Source: Macrocystis pyrifera
Taxonomy: Eukaryota > Sar > Phaeophyceae > Laminariales > Laminariaceae
Length of the DNA: 64,000 nucleotides
Assembly: GCA_031763025.1 (NCBI GenBank)
Contig: JASSKH010000032.1
Location: 2,931,001 to 2,995,000 of the forward strand
Direction: 5' to 3'
The position numbers and the translations under genes were made by a program. This document shows, in pieces, positions 659 through 50,151 of the stretch (positions are counted from its first letter, which is position 1; every line of letters starts with the position of its first letter). Under the pieces are notes generated by a model. The model saw only the letters and a list, made by a program, of their open reading frames with translations. It was not told where the DNA came from and made no database searches.

Positions 659-1723
659 CTAGCGAAGTCGATCGATAAGATATCTTCGTGCGAGGGATAG
701 GCAAAGATGGACCCATTAATTCTGGCGAAGACACGAGGAAGATGGTCGAAGACAACTTCGAACAAGCGCTCCGGCAACAGCAAGCTGCACGTGACGACAG
801 TTCAGCGGAGGGAGAGAGGATAGACGAAGGACGAGCAACCGCCCAGGAAGGACCTGTGAGCACCGCCGCATCGTCACCCTCCCAAAAATTCACGCAGGAC
901 TACGCACGAGTACAACAGCAAGCGTGGGCGTCAGGCCCAGCCTCAGGAATGTTTCGATTTAGTACCAGAAATAGGCCCAAACCGTTTGATGGTGATTTTA
1001 AGAGTGGGGAAGAAAGACAGCAGAAGATTTTGATTTTTGAGGGACAAATGATTGCGCTGTTTGGGGAGAAGGGGTGCCTTGATGCAGTAACAAGTGACGT
1101 GCCTATTAAGGTTGGACTTCCGAATGTAGACGAGGAAGCCCTAAAGAGGGAGCATGGAGCAGAGTCGGTAGCGAAGGCACGCGTTGCTTGGGGTATCCTC
1201 ATCCACCAGATTACATATCCCCCAATGCTTGAGAAAATATGGCAGCAGGAAGCCCGAGTGAGGGTTGGAATTTTTTTAAGAAGTTTTATGCCCCACAGTC
1301 TTCGGCCGAAAAGGCCAGACTTACTCAGACTTGGTATGGTCTTAAGATGAAGGACAGAGAGCACCCGAACGAGTACTTTGCGAGGAGTAGTGTTCTTAGG
1401 AGTCGGCTTGCAAATCATGCGGTGACCTTTTCCGACTTGGATGCAAACCAACACTTGGCCCGCAATCTTTCCCACGCATTCCGAGTTCAAAAGAGCATTT
1501 TGCTCGCAACCGCAGATTTGTCGTACAAAGTCCTTGAGGATGTGGTACTGGACGCTCATGGCGAGATGGAGATGGCGAAGGAGGAGGAGAAGAGGAATGG
1601 GACGGGACATGCACTCGTGGCCCCCGACTGGCCAGGCCGGGGGAATGGGGGTGTTCAAGATGGCGGGAGAGGGGGTCAAGGCGGTCGTGGAAGAGGCAAG
1701 AGGCGCGACTACAAGAAGGGGGA

Positions 1724-1763
1724 GCAGCAGCAGCAGAGGCAACAGCCTCAGCAGCAGCAGCAG

Positions 1764-1803
<40 letters not shown>

Positions 1804-1816
1804 TTCAGCAGCAGCA
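1724..1816 (+). repeat. CAG microsatellite coding polyglutamine in gag
   Basis: A run of CAG with interspersed CAT, CCT and AGG triplets encodes a Gln/His-rich tract inside Gag. The longest pure part is near 1777-1803. The unrelated copia element 2 has a similar CAG tract in its gag (21627-21730 on the other strand). Confidence 0.9.
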
Positions 1817-2101
1817 TGTGAGTCATGGCGGTGGTGTTGGTTGGGGCGCAGTGCCACATTGGGGCGCTCGAGAAGGAGGACCCGGGAGCAGGGGAAGCAA
1901 CGGAAGGTTTGGGGGTGGTCGTAGACAAGGTGCTGGGGGAAGAGGTAGGGGTTTGTTACCATACCCCCCTCCCCCCGGCAGATACGACTACTCTCGGTAC
2001 CCGCCGAACGCCCCTCGCCCTTATGGTCCGCTGCCTGTTTATGGAGCTTCTCCTCAGAGTAGCCACGCGGGCGGACCTCCACACCCCTCGCATTTCCCGC
2101 C

Positions 2102-2253
2102 GGGTCGACAACAGCAGTGGCCGCGCCCGTACGGTCAAGGAAATATTGCCGCCGCTGCCCCGGGAGGGTCGACAACAGCAGTGGCCGCGCCCGTACGGTC
2201 AAGGAAATATTGCCGCCGCTGCCCCGGGAAATATTGCCGCCGCTGCCCCGGGA
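2102..2253 (+). repeat. 64-bp tandem duplication plus short satellites in gag
   Basis: A 64-bp unit beginning gggtcgacaacagcag occurs at 2102-2165 and again at 2166-2229, essentially identical. It is followed by extra copies of a 21- to 24-bp piece containing attgccgccgctgccccgg. Because 64 is not a multiple of three, the duplication changes the reading frame; the same peptide is read in one frame in the first unit and in another in the second. Confidence 0.9.
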
Positions 2254-2760
2254 TATGGTAGTGTTTTCCTTGCCTCCGGTGTTGCTGCCACCACTACCGC
2301 CGAGGACAGCTTCTACGAGGACTACAGCCACGACGACTACTACAGCGACTACGGTGATTACGGCGACTACGGCGACTACGAGGGTGGCTACTATCTACAG
2401 CAGCCTGCTTCGCCGTCACCGCAGTTTCAGTCGCCGCCACCGCCGCCGTCGCAATTCCATCCGTCACCGTCGCACTTCCAGCCGCCGCCGCCGCCGCCTC
2501 CGTCGCAATTCCAGCAACCGCCCCCGACCCCACAGCAACAGCATCATCCCAGCTATGCCCCGTCCCCTTCCTCTTCCTCTCCTGCCGGAGCATCTTCATC
2601 TCCCAACGGCGACCTCCACAGCCTTGTGGCACGTTCAGTGCCACAAGGCAAGGTGGAGTCAAATTCTGGCAGATTAGGGGTGTATGGGTTAGCTAGTCTG
2701 TGAAGGTGTTAGTGTGACGGGTCGTGGGATAGGTCCGCCAGGTAGGGGGATTCTATTTCC

Positions 2761-9900: not shown

Positions 9901-10764
9901 GGGTTGTTTTCTGTCGCATTTTGTGCAACGCAAATTTCGACCAATATCAATCACTGGAGCACATGTTAGTCGAGGTATACACCTGTCTGTTGAGAACCTG
10001 CGGGGCATCAATCTCGATCGAAGCACAAGCTGCTGTGATGAATCTCTAACAAGTCGCCGTCGCTCTCCGGGAAGCACGAACCAGCCGCAGTTCTGAACGC
10101 AGCGTGTCAAGATAGCATTGTTTTTTTCTGTCCCGATAAAAACATCTAGACATTAGAGTGACCGGATACTCGGGGACCAGGGGACGCTTGGGTGCCAGCG
10201 TCGCTTCAAGGATGACGTTGAGACCCAACAACTAATTTCCCATAATATTGACCCGTTTTAGTTTTTTTTTTTTCAAAGAATGCACGCCAACGGCGATCAC
10301 TTCTGACCAAACAGAAAATGTCTACAAAAATATCTCTCGTTCCAAAATTACGAAAAGCTGCTGATGTCGGATTGTTCTTTTTTACAAGGTTTAAATCTAA
10401 TCCTTCGTTCCACGAATATTATGTTGATGCCGGACTCAAAGGGGTCGGTGGGGTGTGCGTGGCATGGTAGGCCAACACAGGTTGTGCTCGTCGCCGCATA
10501 CCTGGTACATATACTTCGTATACTCTTTCGATACATATATAGATTTTTTCAGCTCAAAAAATAGAGGCGACCTGGCCAACACATTCTAGAACTGGCACAA
10601 ACGTACCTATAAGAGAGAGAAAAAACTGCCTGTGTGAAGAGCATCGCTTTGGGAACCTCCTAGCTTCGGCCATCACCAGCCATATCGACCCTAATCACTA
10701 CTGTTCGTAAGAGCCAACAATTCGATCTCGATCACAAACGCTACATAAAAAGCTTGCTGCATAC
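9901..10764. other. Intergenic, nothing recognised
   Basis: There are only short frames and a few homopolymer runs (for example T-run near 10262). The final bases abut the 5' LTR of the gypsy element. Confidence 0.5.
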
Positions 10765-11030
10765 TGTTTTGTTACTGTTTTGTATGAGGTTGAAAGCTCG
10801 GTATTTACCTAGGTCCAGGCACCGGGAACGTATTTGTAGTACTTGGAAGGCGTATCATATATTGAAAACCACGAGGGACGCACAAGCTTGGTCTCCGTCT
10901 TCGCGTGCACGAAAGGAATAAAACTGCTCTTCTATAGCTGAGCAAGCAACCCACGCGAGTACCAACGATTACCGACTTAAAAGGCAGACCTGTCCAGGGA
11001 TACAAAGTGCCCCACAACCTTGATCTTAAC
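10765..11030 (+). repeat. 5' LTR of gypsy element 3
   Basis: It starts TGTTTTG and ends CTTAACA, giving the canonical TG...CA. It aligns over its whole length with 15053-15330, including acttggaaggcgtatc, cgcgtgcacgaaagga and aaaaggcagacctgtccagg. It differs by scattered substitutions and small indels. Confidence 0.92.
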
Positions 11031-11031
11031 A

Positions 11032-11048
11032 GTGGCGTCGACGGCAGG
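11032..11048 (+). other. Primer binding site candidate of gypsy element 3
   Basis: The sequence tggcgtcgacggcagg begins one base after the LTR. TGG is the complement of the CCA tail of a tRNA and this is the expected location. The tRNA was not identified. Confidence 0.5.
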
Positions 11049-11425
11049 ACCCTTTGTTGCCCCCCACCCGAGCACCGTTCTTGAAGACGTCTACAGGGTC
11101 TGCAGGGCCTATTTAGTCTTCGCGTAGGCCGCTCCACGTGCGCAGCGATCCTTCGGCTCCAGTGGAACAGGAAAAACCTGGCACTGTCCGTCGAGCCAGT
11201 GGTAACTCCACGGCCTCCGGTCAGATCAACCGGACAGCAGCATACCCTTAAAATTCGGAAGAATTGCAGCTCTCGTCAAGCAGAACGGACTCAGACCCCC
11301 TGCCCCCTTTGAACCAGGACGGAGATCATCGGGTGCAGAAAGAGAACCTTCTGGCGATTGTTTGCCAAAAGTGACACACAGCTCGTATACGTGGAATCGG
11401 ACTCGTCTCGTGAAACAGGGGCTCA

Positions 11426-12104
11426 GTGCTCTCAGAGAAGCACACCCCCCCACACACACACGCCGCAACTGCGGCCACCAACGACTCGGCACCGTCGGTC
11501 TTTGACTCTACTCTCGAGTATCCAACGGAGGGGGTGGTACTGTTCTGGCAGTCCCCGTCTTATTTTTCGCAGTGGTCCCCCTCGTCTTTTCTCATCGATT
11601 ATGTGCCAGATTCCTGCGCGAACCAGCATATGATGGCTGAAACGGCTCGCCTTTTCCAGGACCACGGCACAGCGGAGCGGATTATGGTCTCGCCAGACCC
11701 ACGCGATCACAAACGCCTCGGTCGAGGCGTGCAAAACTTCGACTGCGCTATCTGGAACCGTGTTCGGGAAGACGCCGTCCGTGCTGCTAATTTTGCAAAA
11801 ATCTCGCAGAACCCGGTCATGAAGCAGCGCCTATTGAGCATTGGGCACCAAATGTTTAGCTGAAGCCAGCCCTTTAGACGGCATGTGGGGCATCGGTCTC
11901 CGGGCGGACGATCCCGAAGCTCACGACCCCTCTCGGTGGCATGGACAAAACTTGCTCGGAAAGCTCTTTCCACCGTTCGCGAAGCCCTCAGCTCAAGTGA
12001 GGCCGGGTTGGCACAACCCGCCTCCTCTCATCAATTCTGCACCCCAACCAGAACTGACAGAATTCATGAGATTGCACCAGCGCCGTCCCGCCCTTTGGCC
12101 GTAG
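11426..12104 (+). pseudogene. NADAR-domain protein inside gypsy element 3
   Basis: The reading frame 11426-11863 and its continuation 11841-12104 give a nearly complete NADAR domain (YbiA-like, Pfam NADAR family). Landmarks in order: VVLFWQSPSYFSQWSPSSF (about residues 36-54), MMAETARLFQDHGTAERIM, LGRGVQNFDCAIWNRVRED, AKISQNPVMKQRLL, then after a one-base slip near 11855 EASPLDGMWGIGLRADDP and SRWHGQNLLGKLF. The family acts on ADP-ribose-type substrates; some members remove ADP-ribose from guanine in nucleic acid. The usual Glu in the (C/S)AEQYMM-like motif is Asn here and the Lys of EKARLF is Thr, so this copy is probably inactive as well as frame-broken. It takes the place of gag after the leader. 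Confidence 0.9.
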
Positions 12105-12380
12105 CCCGCGCTTGCCCAGATCCTCCTTTGGAGTTTTCGACCTATTGTTCTGTCGCACCTAGTGACCCCTCGTCCGTCCCGACGGTACCCATCCCGTCCG
12201 GCCGCAACCGCGCCGAGCCCGTGGGAACTTCTCTTTTACGACTGCCGCCGCCATCTGACGCACCTCCCGTCACCTCGACCGACTTGGACGCCCTCGGCGC
12301 AGCTGCCGAGATTCAGTTCGGTGATTCCGCAGCGTGCTATTCGCACGCCGACTGGGGCTCGGGAACAACAGGCTGAGCCC
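12105..12380 (+). other. Pro/Ser/Ala-rich linker, element 3
   Basis: A frame open from about 11885 to 12376 reads a low-complexity Pro/Ser/Ala segment ending AAEIQFGDSAACYSHADWG. It may be the residue of a polyprotein linker or of a deleted upstream domain. I could not see RT or RNase H motifs in any frame here. Confidence 0.4.
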
Positions 12381-12800
12381 GCGCACAACGCCGCTATGCG
12401 CTGCATAGCCCTTGGCCGACCGGACGTTTTGCCAGACGATTTTTTATCGGGTTTCCATTCCCACCAGCGCCATCCCTTTTAGGAGGTTCAGGAGCTGGCC
12501 GACAAAGCCCGCTTGCACACCACCCACGCGGGCATCGTTCTACTTGTTCGACAGTCGCCCCTCCCCCCTGCGTCCGATACGCAACGCCCGGTGGGTCGTA
12601 CGGCCTGTTTATTGAACGACGAGCCTGTTCGCATTTATGTTCCGCTGCTCATGCGCCCCTGGGTCATGCAGGCTTGCCATTCCACGGCTTCCTGCCACCT
12701 AGGAACCGCGTGCACCCTTCGTATGCTCGAACGTTTCTACTGGTGGATCGGTATGAGCGTGGTGGCTACGCAACTGCCTAAAGTGCCAAATACAGGAAAC
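12381..12800 (+). pseudogene. Integrase N-terminal zinc finger of gypsy element 3
   Basis: The lead-in ALGRPDVLPDDFLSGF precedes IYVPLLMRPWVMQACHSTAS, with the two His of ACHSTASCHLG. The downstream LRMLERFYWWIGM and, after a frame change, NCLKCQ (Cys codons 12775 and 12784) complete the HHCC finger of Ty3/gypsy integrases. A stop near 12479 and the frame change break it. Confidence 0.88.
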
Positions 12801-13771
12801 GTCGCGGCAGACGGTCCGGTGGCCCTCCATCACGTTTGCCTTGCCGGAAGGGACCGGCATCGCCGCCAGCATCGACCATTTCGGCTCTCTCCCGGTGACG
12901 CCTCGAGTCAATACTTACACCTTGCTTTTCACTGGTCGTTTCAGCCGCCAAGCCGACATGAACAGCTAACATTCTCATCAACCGGGATACCCCTCTTTGG
13001 GGGTGCCCACGCAACATCCTCTCGGACAACGGCATCCGGTTTTTCTCCAAGCTTTCGCACGCCGTATATCAGCTTCTCGGGGTTCGAAAAATTGCCACCA
13101 GCTTCTACCACCCAAACGGCAACGGTGGGGTGGAACGTCTAAACCACACGATGGCCCAGATGTTGGCAATGGTCGTCAACGAGCTCCAAAACAACTGGGA
13201 TGAACAGCTCCCTCACGTCGAATTTGCGTAAAACAATTCCGTCAGTGCCGCTACGGGTCTGGCTCCCAACGAGGTACATATGGGTCGGCTCGCACGCCTC
13301 CCTCTCACGAGTTTCAAGCGTGCTGGAGTCGCCGGCCACCAGAGCTTGGCCCGCGGCCAGCTTGCCTACTGCGACCTAGCGACGGACCGCCAGCAGCGCG
13401 CGTGTGATATCGTTCGAGAACACCACGCCCTCACTGTTGCTCGCGTAAACCGCCGCAATTCCGCCCTGTCTGACGCTCTGCGTCCGGTCCCCAAATTTGA
13501 CGTTTGCGGTTGGGTGTGCGTGTACAATACAGCGGCCACCATCCGCCAGGGCGCGAAACCAGACACGGACGCCAAGGTCCTCAAGGCCAAACTCTCACTC
13601 AACTGGACGGGCCTTTACAAAGTTCTCGCAGTTGGCCTATGCTCCTCAGCGGACACCCTGGATGGATATCCTCTCGGAGCAAAGCTCTTGTATTCGGATA
13701 TTCCGTCCGGTATGCCTGGCGCTGAGGCTCGCCGGCGCGTATCTGTTCCACGCTGCAAGCCCCTGTGCTAA
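12801..13771 (+). pseudogene. Integrase core and C-terminal region of gypsy element 3
   Basis: Catalytic residues are visible: Asp in SIDHFGSLPVTPR (codon 12874), Asp in ILSDNGIRFFSKL (13025) and Glu in GGVERLNHTM (13133). The second Asp and the Glu are 35 residues apart. Breaks include a TAA after ADMNS, a TAA at 13229 and at least two frame changes. The C-terminal stretch 13280-13771 has RRVSVPRCKPLC at its end and KLSLNWTGLYKVLAVG, the G-x-Y-x-V module common in gypsy integrases. It would insert element cDNA. Confidence 0.9.
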
Positions 13772-13789
13772 CCACCACGACCGTGGCGA

Positions 13790-14135
13790 CATGCCGAAGT
13801 ATTTACCGGCGGGGTTGACGCAATACGTGCTCAACAATTTCTCCAAGAAATCTCCTCCGTACCACGTCACCGAGGACGACGTTTCGACCCCTCTGGAACG
13901 ACTCGAAGTGGAGAAGATTTATAGACATCAATCGGCTAGAGGTCGAGGTGGAGTCATTGCGGTGATGTACGAGACGCACTGGACAGATATTCCCGGCCAT
14001 CCTGGGAACGGGAAATGGACCTTCAGCTTTCTCGTCACGCAGTTCTACTGGGCCGGCACTCCGAACCAACACCGCCAAACCAACCTCCTGTGCCGCCGAA
14101 TGAGAATTGGCACACCGGCAGCTTTCTCGGAGTAA
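13790..14135 (+). pseudogene. Chromodomain of gypsy element 3 integrase
   Basis: After a frame change, STPLERLEVEKIYRHQSARG and GGVIAVMYETHW form the beta strands of a chromodomain. A one-base slip near 13995-14000 leads to SWEREMDLQLSRHAVLLG, the helix end typical of chromovirus chromodomains. These domains bind modified histone tails and steer integration to heterochromatin. Confidence 0.82.
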
Positions 14136-14199
14136 CGGCGAGCGGTTCCAGGCAACCGGCTTTGGCTGCGTATCGCACGCCGATTGACTCCGCCGATAC

Positions 14200-14484
14200 A
14201 GCAACACTGTACTTCCCAACGGGGCCCACGTTTGGTACAAGGGCGACGACGGCCTGTGGTGGCTCGGGAAAATCAGCGCAACTACACCAACGGATGGAGT
14301 ATATTTGGTTCGATTTTTGGACGACCCGGGGACAATCAAGCTTCATCTTTCTCCGGCGCGCTACACGACTTCGGCGAAAGTTGTACGAGGTTCTAGGTGT
14401 CTGCAAATTCACTTGGCTAGCGCGTCTGCACGGGGGGTTCATAGTAACGTAGATGAATCTCGAGGTGCCGCCGTGGATAGCTGA
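14200..14484 (+). pseudogene. Tudor/Agenet-like module at end of gypsy element 3 pol
   Basis: One frame (codons in phase with 14227) is open to a TGA at 14482-14484 and reads HVWYKGDDGLWWLGKIS, GVYLVRFLDDPGTIKL and HLSPARYTTS. Alternating aromatic and strand segments with a DG turn resemble SH3-like barrels such as Tudor or Agenet domains. No ATG opens it, so it is the tail of the polyprotein. The fold assignment is by pattern only. Confidence 0.5.
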
Positions 14485-15052
14485 TTTTGGCTTCTTGACT
14501 GCACTCGATATTTATTTATTTTTTGTCGTTTTCCTGGACTTTGGGGGATGAATTTTTGTACGCTCGATATGCTTCTGGTGTGTGTGTGTTTGTTTTTTTT
14601 TGCGCTGGGTTGGGGATGTCGTTTTGCGTATTTTCTCCTGCTTACCCCCGCTGCTCAGTGTCGGGACTGGTCTGGGCAATCGGCCGCTCATGTGCGGCCC
14701 AGAACGCGTTTTCACAGTTGTGGGCTGAGTCTAGGTGGTTCTTGCCGTCTTCCGTGTTATTTTTCTTTCGTTCCCGTACTCGCTTTTAGCTTTTCCATGC
14801 ATCTTCTTCGCATCCACCCCCCGTGCGGGCGGCATGGCGATCGCTTTCATTGACGATCTCTTTTGTTGGCTCTTAAGAACAGGTCTTCCCTTTATTTTTT
14901 TACATACTTTACCGATTTCATTGTCTCGTCGTTCAGAGGTGTGGGAGTGGGTTTTGAGGAGCCGCATCTTCGACTCATGTGTTTGTTCGCTGAATCGAGG
15001 TTTCACTGAATTTCCCATAATTCTTCAAATACGGCTCATCAGAGTGGGTTAG
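14485..15052 (+). other. 3' internal non-coding region of gypsy element 3
   Basis: It is T-rich and has no sustained coding frame. It contains gggttttgaggagccgcatcttc (14953-14976), also found in the relics at 34730-35215 and 54880-55110. The purine-rich agagtgggttag just before 15053 is a candidate polypurine tract. Confidence 0.6.
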
Positions 15053-15330
15053 TGTTATAATACTGCATTGTATGAGGTTGAAAGCCCGGTAATTTCCTGG
15101 GTTCAGGCACTGGGAACGTATTGGTAGTACTTGGAAGGCGTATCTTAGATGGAAAACCAGGGGCTTTCTAGAGACGCCCGAGCTTGGTCTCAGTCTTCGC
15201 GTGCACGAAAGGAACAAAACTACTCTTCTTCTATAGCTAAGCAAGCAACACACGTGAGTACCAACTATTACCGACTTAAAAGGCAGACCTGTCCAGGGAT
15301 ACAAAGTGTCCCGCAACCTTAAGCTTACCA
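15053..15330 (+). repeat. 3' LTR of gypsy element 3
   Basis: It starts TGTTATAATAC and ends CTTACCA. It is the partner of 10765-11030. An extra gggctttctagagacgc-like stretch near 15163 accounts for much of the 12-bp length difference. No convincing target-site duplication was seen (flanks catac and ctact). Confidence 0.92.
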
Positions 15331-17450: not shown

Positions 17451-17850
17451 TTAGAACGCTGCTCCTCCGACTCTACTTGGGTAATAACAACCCCCCCCTT
17501 TGTAAATCAGCTGCCGCAAAAAGTAGTGTCGTACGTCGATGTCGTTTGAATTCGACGTGAACACTGGATTTTTTGCCATGTGCCTTGCCCCTTCGTTATC
17601 CTCGAAAACCGTAATGCTTCTCTCCACAAATCTCGCAAAATGAAAACTCCAGGCGTAGCGCATGAACATCGCCTCCGTGATATTATCTGCCAGTGCTACA
17701 TATTCGGCCTCAGTGGTTGAGACTGTGACGCGTTTCTGCGTCCATGAAAACCAGCGCACACGCCCCAGCACACATGATAGCCCCACCGGAAACTGACCTC
17801 GTGTCAGTGGCTTTGTTGGCATAATCTGCATCTGCAAACGCTACCAGCTC
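17451..17850 (-). pseudogene. RNase H of copia element 2
   Basis: The minus strand reads RWFSWTQKRVTVSTTEAEYV, VFEDNEGARHMAKNPV and DIDVRHYFLRQL, the typical copia RNase H line. The active-site Asp/Glu in TEAEYVALAD and EDNEGA are present. The 5' part that would hold DADYA is frame-shifted. Confidence 0.87.
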
Positions 17851-18990: not shown

Positions 18991-19140
18991 CCTATAACCT
19001 TCCCGCGCTGCCATCAACGACAGCAGCCCATGTCCCTTAGCCTCGCGGTTCGGTGTATTCTCCCCCCTTGTTCGCCCCCTCAGCACATCTCTCTATTTTC
19101 CGGTGCCGCCCAACTTCCCCCCTGGTCCGACCACCCTGTA

Positions 19141-19368
19141 TATCGCCACTACCCCCCTGGTATCGTGCGGTTTTCCCCACTTTTCGACCTCTCTGCACAC
19201 CGCCACCACCCTCCTGGTGTCATGCGATCTCCCCCCTTGTCTGCCCTCCCTCCACACCGCCACCACCCTCCTGGTGTCGGTCTGTCTCCCCCCTTGTCTG
19301 TCCTCTCTCCACACCGCCACCACCCTCCTGGTGTCGTGCTGTCTCCCCCCTTGTCCATTCCCTCAGCA
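19141..19368 (-). repeat. 57-bp minisatellite, integrase-RT hinge of copia element 2
   Basis: Four units of 57 bp start at 19141, 19198, 19255 and 19312, each with caccaccctcctggtgtc or close variants. 57 bp equals 19 codons. It occupies the same integrase-RT position as the 24-bp repeat of element 1. Confidence 0.9.
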
Positions 19369-19744: not shown

Positions 19745-20864
19745 TCAAGTGACGTTGAGGGAGAACGACCTCTGGCCAGGCACCAGGAGAATCGCTGCAG
19801 TCAGCTGCGTGTTGGTTGTCACCGTTGCGCTGCAAGCCTCCGCCTTCCGCTGGGTCTTCAGGGTCCTCCTGACGTAGTGGAAGCCCGGTTTGAGAAACGA
19901 GAGCAGCCGCGCAAACGGTGCTCTCCCGTGGAATCTACGGTACGGCGAGTGCATTTCCGGCTTGTCCCATTCCCTCGCTGTCATGTTGATCACATCGCTT
20001 GCGTACACGCATGCCTCAGCCCTGAGGACCTGCGTCGCCGACATCCTTGCATTGCCGAACACGCAAGGGGCCTCCAGGCGGAACGCTATTGCAAGCTCCA
20101 GCGTCATGGCGATCTGTCGCTCGACCACCCCGTCATGCTTCGGAGAATCGACGATGCTCGCGGCGGATGCCGTGATGGTTGAGCTCCACGAATTCCGTCT
20201 TGGTGAACACGGTGCCGTTGCCCGAGCGAAGGCACACCACGATGGACGGCACACCCTTTACGTTGATGTCGGCCAGAAAACCAGCGAAGACCTTCGGGAC
20301 GTCGGACTTCCGCTTCAAGACATACAGCCACCCCAGTCGCGAGTAGCCGCCGACGATCATCATCAAGTACTGCACACCGCCAGCAGACGTAGACCGCTGT
20401 CCCGACAGATCCACGAACAGATGCTCCAGGAGCCTCGTAGAACGACACTCGGTCGCCCACGGCATCGCCATCCTCATCCCGTTCGCTTCAGAACATCCAG
20501 CACACGAAACCAACTCTCCAAAAACCTTATTGCCCATCCGGCGTGCTGTCTCACGGAGGTTGTCAGTGGGATTGGGCAAGGGAAAGGTGAAGTCGTTAAT
20601 ATCAAACCTCCGAATTTTTCCAGGGGCCAAAACAGCGGCAGCAATCGGGGTCTCTACAATCCGCGTGGCATCTAAGTGTGAACCCGCGTCCCTACGAATG
20701 AAGGATAACTGCCCATCCAAAATGTGAGCTCCCTGAGCATCACGTGTCGCCGGGCATTTCAGCATTACGGCATGAAACGAAAACGGGTTGAAGCGAACAC
20801 CGGGTGCTTGTGCTACGTCCGACAGCCTACCTTGAACGTCACACTGAGGGCTGCGCATTACCAT
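19745..20864 (-). pseudogene. GAG-pre-integrase and integrase of copia element 2
   Basis: The minus strand reads RFDINDFTFPLPNPTDNLRE then CAGCSEANG (pre-integrase zinc region), HLFVDLSGQRSTSAGGVQYL (first catalytic Asp), SIVVCLRSGNGTVFTKTEF (second Asp of T-D-N-G replaced by Gly), and DGVVERQIAMTLELAIAF (Glu). A frame change near 20150 separates the last part. The missing second Asp makes this integrase inactive irrespective of frame. Confidence 0.88.
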
Positions 20865-21010
20865 TGGAATCTGGTCGAAGTACTATATTTTCAGTGGCCC
20901 CATGTCACCGACCATCAAACTCCTCTTATCGGGGGAAGGGGGGGTACAGTCTATCATACCAAAGGGGTTACCGGTCAAATGAAAGGTCGCTCCCGAATCC
21001 GCTACTCATT
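20865..21010 (-). pseudogene. Protease of copia element 2
   Basis: On the minus strand VADSGATFHLTGNPFGMID shows an intact aspartic protease catalytic motif DSGAT (plus coordinates 20985-20999). The remainder includes SLMVGDMGPLKI and then a stop, so the flap half is truncated or shifted. Confidence 0.78.
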
Positions 21011-22840
21011 CTGCTCTCCCACTAACCCAAACCAAATCATCAGTCGCCTTGCCTTGGTCCGCAAACTGCGCGGTGAGGAGGTGCGGATCGAACGTAGGCG
21101 TAGGGTTGCCGTGGTTCGCTGGGCCAGGGGAGGAGAAAGTGCTCGAGGAGGGTTGTTGCGACGGGGAAGCTCCGGCCAAGGTATACCCACCACTGCCGTG
21201 GGGCGTCTCCTGCAGCCAGCCACCTCCGTAGTGTATCTCCTGAGGGGTTGACGAGCGGCAGCACCCGGGATGGCGATGTTCATCTGCGCGGGAGCTACCT
21301 GACATTCCGCGACGTAGCGGACCGGTCTGCCGCTCTGGAAGCTGAGCCCCTTGCGCTTCCTGGCGTGTTGTTCGGTGGGAGGCCCCAGCCTGCCGGAGTT
21401 GTAGCAGGCGGCAGGGGTATCGGCGACGACATTATCCCTGATGGTGGGTCGGTAGGTACCCAACCCATGGAGGGGACTACCCCACTCGTGCCGAAAGGGT
21501 CTGGACCAGAGTCATCCCAACGGTACCTGTAGGCCACGGCATCCCAACACCATTTGGGGCCGGTTATCCCCCCCGACGAAGCTCCTCCCCTGTTGCCACC
21601 ATGCTGATGGGGACGATGCTGTAGCTGCTTCTGCTGGGGCTGCTACTGCTGCTGTTGATGCTGCTGCTGCTGCTGCTGATACTGCTGCTGGGGCTGCTGC
21701 TGCTGCTGATGCTGCTGATGCTGTTACTGCTTCCCACCCTTGAACCTCCAGCCTGTCCTGTTCCTGCTTTCCCCTCCTGGACCCGTACCTCCACCACCGG
21801 AAGGTTGCGCACCTCCGGCGTACAAGGCATGCAGATCTACCACTCCCTGCATGCCCAACGGCTTAGAAACCGTCTCTTTCTTTACCTTGTCGTTGTCATA
21901 CGCATCACGGAAAATCTCATCGATCTCGTAACGGGGGATGAAAGGGCAGGAAAGAATTGACTCACTTTGTATCGTGTACGAAGACGAGAGGTTGGTGACC
22001 ATGTGGCGGTTTACTTCCTTCACACTCTTACCGCAGCCCAACATAGCCAGCTCATCCGCTGCCTTATCTACCTTACCTAGAAACAGCAGGGGGTTCTCGT
22101 CCTCAGTCATCGTAATGGTCTCGGATCGTCTTTTTAACCTATGCGTCGCAGCTATCGTATTTGGCAAGTAGTAGTCCTCTAACGCTTTCCAGGCACCACT
22201 TGGCGACATTGCCTTTTTCATTCGAAATTCCGCCATCTTATATCCTGTCATAGATGTCATCATCAATTCGTATATCAATTGCGCATCTCTGATTTCTGGA
22301 GGAGAATGCCTGGAGGCTAGCGCCTCCGGAGTCACCCTCATATCACCTACCAGAACTGGGTTAGCTGTGTTGCTGAGTGCATGCAGGCACTCGAGCGATA
22401 ACACGTAGGCTACAACCGTACTACGCCACATACCTTAAGTGGGCCTCTAGATTATCGATCTTTGGGGGCCTCGACTGGGTAAAACTAGGGCGGTATAAAG
22501 AAGATAATGGCATGCCTGATTGGGCTTCCAGCCCAGGTGTCGACACAGTTGACGTTGGTTGTTGTCTTGCAGCTGCTTCTCCTCTCGTCCCCTCTCCGCG
22601 CCCCCCCCCCCGTTGCTGCTCGCTGCGCGTCCTTCTAATGCGCAGCCTCTGCTCCTCCATCGTCCTTTCCAGGACCTCGATCTTCCCTCTCATTTCATCC
22701 ATCTTCTCCACACTTGCCACGCTGACTTCCTGACTAGGCACATCATCTAAACCCGGCATGCTGGAAGCTTCCAACCTCTCTAGGTTGGCATTGGCGGCGC
22801 TTGCCAAACGAAAATCACCAGCTTTCACTAGTGTGTTGAT
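21011..22840 (-). pseudogene. Gag of copia element 2, with coiled coil and polyQ
   Basis: Minus-strand order: a coiled-coil segment EKMDEMRGKIEVLERTMEEQ (before 22421), a proline/serine linker, then after a frame change MRVTPEALASRHSPPEIRDA, MKKAMSPSGAWKALEDYYLP and HRLKRRSETITMTEDENPLL, the UBN2 gag core (21724-22431). Downstream are the polyglutamine tract and a decayed CCHC knuckle (CYNSGRLGPPTEQHARKRK), in which expected C, H and C are S, P and H. Packages element RNA. Confidence 0.85.
21627..21730 (-). repeat. CTG/CAG microsatellite in gag of copia element 2
   Basis: The plus strand is CTG, TTG and CTA triplets; the minus strand encodes a Gln/Ser-rich tract depending on frame. Confidence 0.88.
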
Positions 22841-48910: not shown

Positions 48911-49833
48911 TTAGTCCCCTCCGCCAGTCTCTCTTCCGGGTACACGCCCGAATGCAATACCAGCCCCCGCTTCACGCGCGATTTTGTCTAGTCTCGCCAG
49001 GTAAGACTTCTTCATACCGTGCTGCTTAATCCCCAGAACAATATTTTCGCCGGCGAAGTTTTCCTTTTGGCCCAGAAGGAGATAGTAAAAGCGTATACGG
49101 TCGTGCTTACGACGCGTTCGTTCAGACATGCCGTCTCGCTCTGTTAGTCTGATCGGGATGCCCGGGTTCCGGAGATATGGCGAAAGTATCCGCGGGACTA
49201 TGTCGAAACCGTATTTCACGCGGAACGTTCGGCCCTTGAGCACCGGATGAGCACGGTATCGTGAGACTGCCGCACTGTCGAACAAGCTGGGGCTGCCAAA
49301 AGTGTATACCCCATCGATGCGTTCGACCCTGAGTTCTTGGACCAGTCTTGCAGCTGTGATAATCGCCATTGCTCCGCCAAGCGAGTGTCCTCCAATCCAC
49401 ACGCTACGGTCCTGCTGATGCCCTCCTTGAGCTCCTTGGAAATATTCCAGCGTTTGAAGATCCGGCCAAAGGCTATCCTGGGCATCGAAGAATCCTCGGT
49501 GCACGTTGCTCTGTGGAACTCGAACGTCGTTGGAAATGGGAAATGACTTGTAACCCAGCTTGAAGTTTTGGAGCCAATTCGTCCATGATGCTGTGCCCCG
49601 GAAGACGATGAAAATGTCGCTTGCACTCTCAACGATAATAGCGACATTATCCGCTCTCCTATCGGCTACGGGGCTGTGGAAATACTTAACAACAAGCTTG
49701 TCGTCGGGTATCCATTTCCTGCATTTCTCAGCCGCCAGTGCTTTTTCTTGTTCGTCGGGCTCGTCCGGAATATCATATGCGAGCTGGGACAGGTGCCCCA
49801 TTATGGCCGCTATCCTCCACTTGAATGAGACTC
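48911..49833 (-). CDS. Class 3 lipase (fungal lipase-like), last exon
   Basis: Alpha/beta hydrolase of the lipase 3 family, expected to hydrolyse acylglycerol esters. The minus-strand frame ends at TAA 48911-48913 and shows FIVFRGTASWTNWLQNFKLG (oxyanion region), WIGGHSLGGAMAI (Ser nucleophile in GHSLGG), YTFGSPSLFD, DIVPRI (candidate acidic region), and KQHGMKKSYLARL, whose His fits the third catalytic position. The first ATG (49801) gives 296 residues, but the frame stays open upstream as VSFKWRIAAIMGHLSQL to a good 3' splice site (pyrimidine-rich, then acag|ga at 49833). The paralogue at 28895-29604 keeps that extension, so the real protein probably starts in an unidentified upstream exon. 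No stop or frameshift seen. Confidence 0.9.
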
Positions 49834-50151
49834 CTGTACGTTAGTTGCAAAAGCAAAGGTGTAGATAGCGTCACACTTCAAACCAGCATCACTCGCAATA
49901 TGCTGTTCACAGTGCTTTAAACTGAACAACTACTACAGGACGTACCCTATCCTATAAACAGCTGTCCTGAAACATCGAGCACGCAGAGAGCGCGCAACAC
50001 AATATCTACAGATGCCCGCGAAATGTACTGCTGTAGAGGCGCTATGGCGTCGTGCCTGCCCCTCTGGAGAGGGTAATACAGCCCACAGGCACTATCAGGA
50101 TATGGGTTAAACTAGATCAGGCTGGATGTCTTTATCGGCAATGGGCATATT
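49834..50151. other. Candidate intron/upstream region of the lipase
   Basis: On the minus strand this precedes the lipase exon. No further lipase-like exon was recognised before the MITE at 50152. Confidence 0.35.

Follow-up and report, generated by a model that had tools for sequence, protein, structure and literature searches.

The NADAR-carrying element in the window

The stretch analysed here (the window) is 64,000 nucleotides of the brown alga Macrocystis pyrifera (contig JASSKH010000032.1, positions 2,931,001 to 2,995,000), and it contains a copy of a Ty3/gypsy retrotransposon with a YbiA-type NADAR domain between its long terminal repeats (LTRs). Two overlapping frames matched the Pfam NADAR profile PF08719, the first at 11414-11863 (+; E 6.4e-22, 79 bits, profile positions 2-117) and the second at 11838-12104 (+; E 7.5e-10, 39.7 bits, profile positions 115-154 of 163). 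Both pieces exceed the curated cut-off of 35.1 bits, and jointly they cover profile positions 2-154. A preliminary description of this DNA had reported a near full-length NADAR domain at 11426-12104 between two LTRs. The domain is indeed present, lies inside the LTR pair and covers most of the profile, but it extends over about 11543-11966 (+), small indels split it across two frames, and the residues aligned to the catalytic E43 and K50 (numbered as in the Phytophthora nicotianae enzyme) are Asn and Thr, which are not the residues of an active enzyme. The glutamate found near the last strand of YbiA-type NADARs, as opposed to Asp or His, is present in the second piece.

The two LTRs are TG...CA repeats, as described before. 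The 5' LTR is at 10765-11031 (+), within a direct repeat of 15050-15330, and the 3' LTR is at 15053-15330 (+), within a direct repeat of 10762-11031. Over the pair of about 270 bp (10762-11031 against 15050-15330), 238 of 270 ungapped positions are identical (88%; Kimura two-parameter distance 0.129), and no matching target-site duplication was seen in the sequence flanking the pair. When used as a query against its own genome, the 5' LTR gave 42 matches including the window itself (40 scored of 2199 candidates). A candidate primer-binding site follows at 11033-11048 (+). Of its 16 bases, 15 are also present two bases past the LTR of L040, a copy from a second family (family B, see below) whose LTR has no blastn match to the window LTR; weaker matches with three mismatches were also found elsewhere, in 17 of the loci compared.

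The window element was aligned with a longer copy, L031. A remnant of the Pol N-terminal linker with a broken frame occupies 11047-11542 (+). Window positions 11047-12159 are 90% identical to L031 4218-5336, the stretch 12163-13455 is 88% identical to L031, and at the junction between them (12159-12163, +) 3.3 kb are absent relative to L031. The missing part comprises the protease motif, reverse transcriptase (RT) and RNase H of L031. In two other copies, L045 and L046, the alignment to the window is interrupted at this position by about 3.4 kb, which include the protease motif. The gag gene is also absent from the window copy; L045 has a zinc knuckle and a long linker upstream, and in L046 an LTR is near Pol as in the window. 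We considered whether the window represents a non-autonomous subfamily sharing this deletion, and found no member of one among the places scored: with a 201-base query across the junction (40 scored of 873 candidates), the junction was spanned by the window alone, while 38 of the other 39 places matched the left side only (ending at base 97-108) and one matched the right side only (109-201).

Downstream of the deletion and on the same strand is the integrase, as had been proposed. Its zinc-binding domain (H2C2) is clear at 12639-12758 (+; PF17921, E 1.2e-6, 29 bits against a cut-off of 25.5), but the core and C-terminal region (12759-13771, +), recognised by alignment with relatives, is in pieces, in several frames with stops, and only rve_3 was matched in one piece at E 0.069. 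In relatives the integrase core matched PF00665 at E 4.6e-6 to 6.5e-5 and 1.7e-6, under the curated cut-off. A chromodomain-like segment was recognised by eye at 13860-14075 (+) and is also found in L034, L036, L045 and L046; a Pfam search of L034:5852-8134 gave nothing with E up to 1. Further downstream there is a weak SH3/Tudor-like tail (14188-14400, +), again recognised by eye, which is shared with L034, L036 and L045 and of which L046 has the beginning. The best Pfam match of this tail was under the cut-off (E 0.026), and its single-sequence structure model was unusable, with a predicted local distance difference test (pLDDT) score of 47.8. Six of the 10 open reading frames (ORFs) of the window searched, including pieces between NADAR and integrase, had no Pfam match. 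Kinship of the window element to chromoviruses, as the preliminary description had it, is not supported, and in the available text of PMC12477816 the Ectocarpus lineages that carry a chromodomain are said to be unrelated to chromoviruses, and the NADAR-carrying elements are not counted as chromoviruses.

Of the Ty3/gypsy parts, the window copy thus retains only the LTRs, the candidate primer-binding site and the integrase. This copy is dead: it has no gag, protease, RT or RNase H, its NADAR can no longer be read in a single frame, and two residues of the active site are gone. It is an old, internally deleted and non-functional copy of family A in a group of NADAR-carrying Ty3/gypsy elements.

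Gypsy families with NADAR in the genome

The genome searched comprised 537,376,219 bases in 223 contigs. A NADAR domain above the Pfam cut-off was found in all 150 places scored, and since these were 150 of 1264 candidates, the counts for the genome are lower bounds. For family assignment 44 places were examined, taken from the 150 or from later ones, and three Gypsy families were recognised: A, which includes the window copy, B (L034, L035 and L040 among others) and C (L047). Taken together, the copies of these families have the LTR pair, the primer-binding site and the order protease, RT, RNase H, integrase of Ty3/gypsy elements (Metaviridae). Combining the copies gives the composite order gag zinc knuckle, NADAR, protease, RT, RNase H, integrase and tail.

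The preliminary description had proposed that NADAR is part of the element, and this holds for the families as a whole. In L031 a single open frame of 1696 residues contains NADAR (residues 233-382), the protease motif (498), RT (886-1043) and RNase H (1109-1242). Behind this frame comes sequence that aligns to the integrase region of the window. L047 has an open frame of 2349 residues, of which 2165 were analysed, with NADAR, the protease motif, RT and integrase domains, the integrase core being below the Pfam cut-off. CCHC knuckles are present upstream of NADAR in L035, L045 and L047. In the longer copies the YbiA-type NADAR is a part of Pol, with the Gag zinc knuckle upstream of it and the aspartic protease motif downstream. 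A Pfam search of Pol and Gag frames matched no transferase family, including a DarT-type neighbour. In L031, L038, L039, L045 and L046 the linker between the NADAR-RT part and the integrase contains a tandemly repeated unit of about 126 bp (42 residues), and the number of units differs among these copies. In L040 the first 258 bases recur at the other end with no differences, the first repeat being truncated by the edge of the sequence, and because of these identical ends L040 seems to have inserted recently.

Active site, selection and origin of the domain

The roles of E43, K50, E125, D130 and W133 in the P. nicotianae NADAR are described in the available part of PMC11543638. We carried out a census of the aligned residues in 45 rows (29 from family A and 16 from family B) representing 43 distinct places, with the numbering transferred by an inferred constant offset of two in the alignment to 8bau. 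Family A kept the five residues in 28, 28, 29, 29 and 29 of 29 rows, respectively, and family B kept each of them in 16 of 16, so that the pooled counts are 44, 44, 45, 45 and 45 of 45. In family C, L047 retains the E43 and K50 equivalents by eye. The YbiA-type glutamate was kept in 45 of the 45 rows, and it is the glutamate of the YbiA subfamily as defined in the accessible text of PMC11125620, where YbiA-type NADARs are reported to hydrolyse guanosine-ADP-ribose in vitro. Among solved structures, an intact copy matched 8bau (E 5.3e-17) and Escherichia coli YbiA (E 1.4e-5) best. The predicted model of a relative, P0018 (mean pLDDT 82.4), matched the fold of the same two proteins (E 1.7e-7 and 1.3e-4), these being two of 53 matches listed with E up to 0.001.

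We compared the ratio of nonsynonymous to synonymous polymorphism (pN/pS) within families A and B after dropping L004 and L027 (which coincide with L045 and L046) and leaving out L032; L011 and L023 lack the motif, and RT was covered by a single pair. Within family A (25 copies) pN/pS was 0.44 for NADAR, 0.89 and 0.85 for the neighbouring linkers and 0.72 for the protease region. The values for family B (16 copies) were 0.58 for NADAR against 0.78, 0.47 and 0.64. Between families, with one copy taken from each, NADAR was 45-57% identical and the protease 57-65%. The upstream linker was at shuffle level between A and B (z -0.0) and between B and C (z 0.6) and weakly above it between A and C (z 3.4), while the middle linker had weak similarity (z 4.8-6.0). 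The median nonsynonymous divergence (dN) between A and B was 0.46, and the synonymous divergence (dS) was saturated at 2.35. Since NADAR is conserved between families whose upstream linkers resemble one another no more, or little more, than shuffled sequences do, the sequence comparison points to long-term purifying selection on the YbiA-type NADAR. The purifying selection that the preliminary description had suggested looking for is therefore supported between families, and within families it is clear in A and not decisive in B.

The host also has NADAR sequences outside these elements. An exon at L049 2663-2953 (G000 C192, -) belongs to a zinc-finger NADAR gene separate from the elements and spans a cysteine-rich segment together with the first part of NADAR; the remainder of the gene was not found in the 3.1 kb of sequence containing the exon. 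A second candidate host locus, L048, has the zinc-finger part only and no NADAR. Among the matches listed (120 of 2080), the closest named bacterium was Nannocystis (about 62%), and standalone-looking proteins of the brown algae Ectocarpus, Pylaiella and Scytosiphon, which have an N-terminal cysteine-rich segment, were at 58-62%. Three trees were built on chosen rows rather than on all matches. In the first (53 rows), family A grouped neither with the standalone brown-algal genes nor with B. The second (53 rows, chosen differently) placed A beside the algal genes (93/87) and separated it from B (96/97), and the approximately unbiased test did not reject A and B as a single clade (p-AU 0.257). 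In the third (45 rows), family C was added and nine long-branch rows of the second tree were removed; the positions were unresolved, and neither a clade of A, B and C (p-AU 0.135) nor one of A and C (p-AU 0.222) was rejected. The unconstrained trees never joined the element families. A single capture of NADAR by the elements is the simpler reading, though unproven, and the family A domain may have been taken from the host's own zinc-finger NADAR gene and not from a bacterium.

Possible roles and comparison with known systems

Judging from the sequences, NADAR would be produced within the Gag-Pol product, packaged into the particle alongside RT and released by the element protease. It could then hydrolyse ADP-ribose, most likely on guanine, from the RNA or cDNA of the element, and reverse transcription and integration would thereby be unblocked by host ADP-ribosylation or ADP-ribose adducts. 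This is the explanation we favour, and we give it an even chance. A retrotransposon counter-defence, in which NADAR in the particle erases guanine ADP-ribosylation placed by the host on element cDNA or RNA, would imply an ADP-ribosylation-based genome defence in brown algae, and we put it forward tentatively, as somewhat doubtful. If true, an ADP-ribose-cleaning enzyme under long-lasting selection in retrotransposons would point to a hitherto unknown host modification that acts on mobile elements in brown algae.

Several points weigh against clearance of ADP-ribose by a packaged NADAR. No host transferase that modifies nucleic acid was found, and to our knowledge none is known. The host yielded one PARP-like exon match (one of six candidates, E 3e-6), so counter-defence can be called possible and nothing stronger. 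RT is 78-83% identical between families and NADAR is far less conserved. In family B the NADAR pN/pS (0.58) is not under that of one adjoining linker (0.47), and thus this family alone is not decisive on selection. The residue census is skewed to intact domains because the copies were chosen as the best-scoring ones. RNase H was not detected by Pfam in L047, and hence the longest of the frames is perhaps not entirely intact. Finally, according to the portion of PMC11125620 available, NADARs outside DarT operons are inefficient against DarT1 in cells.

Alternatively, NADAR might remove small damaged or reactive N-glycosides near RT, with no role against host ADP-ribosylation. The position of the domain resembles that of the dUTPase of some retroviruses, a cleaner of the nucleotide pool. 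The YbiA-type glutamate in every row is in keeping with this, and the known substrate of YbiA is a riboflavin intermediate (PMC11543638, in the part available). On the other hand, the YbiA-type enzymes tested also hydrolyse the guanosine-ADP-ribose mentioned above (PMC11125620, as far as its text was available), and we consider such pool cleaning conceivable and short of probable. The authors of PMC12477816, in the available text, proposed instead that NADAR acts on the RNA intermediate of the element, and they reported NADAR in ORF1 of an oyster long interspersed nuclear element (LINE). Such RNA processing could be by binding and not by catalysis; the retention of active-site residues in two families goes beyond what mere binding requires, and we regard this role as unlikely. 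It is very improbable that NADAR was captured and is carried without function: the domain is lost in the window copy and its pN/pS in family B is not clearly below that of its surroundings, but its conservation between families, with the linker hardly or not at all above shuffle level, and the retained active-site residues speak for a function. That a separate host gene was inserted in, or passed by, an unrelated LTR element can be rejected with near certainty, even though the host has the L049 exon, because other copies have NADAR in one open frame with the protease motif and RT and three families carry it.

Outside the element, the window contains pieces of Copia-type gag at 1233-2261 (+) and 21724-22434 (-), which matched PF14223 under the Pfam cut-off (E 2.2e-4 and 5e-5). 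ORFs at 17451-17840 (-) and 20133-20882 (-) resemble, by eye, the RNase H and integrase of Copia elements, with no Pfam match at E up to 0.1. There is also a 57-bp tandem repeat of about four units (19116-19343) and a class 3 lipase gene at 48911-49840 (-; PF01764, E 1.9e-21).

Betaretroviruses carry a dUTPase ahead of the protease. As in the elements described here, an enzyme domain is thus found between the Gag zinc knuckle and the protease, but the dUTPase is an unrelated enzyme and the analogy is positional only.

A 2025 paper described NADAR-carrying Gypsy elements (Gypsy-12_Ec32 and kin) in the brown alga Ectocarpus (PMC12477816, available part). The fusion, which the preliminary description thought might be undescribed, is therefore already in print, and the window adds no new kind of element. 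Families A to C likely belong to the Gypsy-12_Ec32 lineage, with which they were compared by description only; the genome is 537 Mb here against 200 Mb for the Ectocarpus system. Among the matches listed in a search of the literature on NADAR or YbiA with retrotransposons, Gypsy or transposable elements, there was no further report for an LTR element. Our additions are the location of NADAR after the zinc knuckle and before the protease, the contrast in selection, the census of active-site residues and the exon in the host, parts of which may be contained in the remaining text of PMC12477816. The same source, in its available text, describes NADAR in the ORF1 proteins of Tx1 LINEs of the oyster Crassostrea gigas as divergent matches; these are likewise retrotransposon-borne, but in a non-LTR element.

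The NADAR antitoxins linked to DarT1 and the P. nicotianae NADAR (PMC11543638, available part) have the same fold as the element domain, and the better copies have the equivalents of E43, K50, E125, D130 and W133. Unlike these, the element NADAR has the YbiA-type glutamate, and no transferase domain accompanies it in the Pol frames searched. In the RNA-virus polyproteins with NADAR or macrodomains described in the available part of PMC9503650, an ADP-ribose-processing domain is likewise encoded in one polyprotein with the polymerase, but those are positive-strand RNA viruses, whereas the element described here is an LTR retrotransposon.

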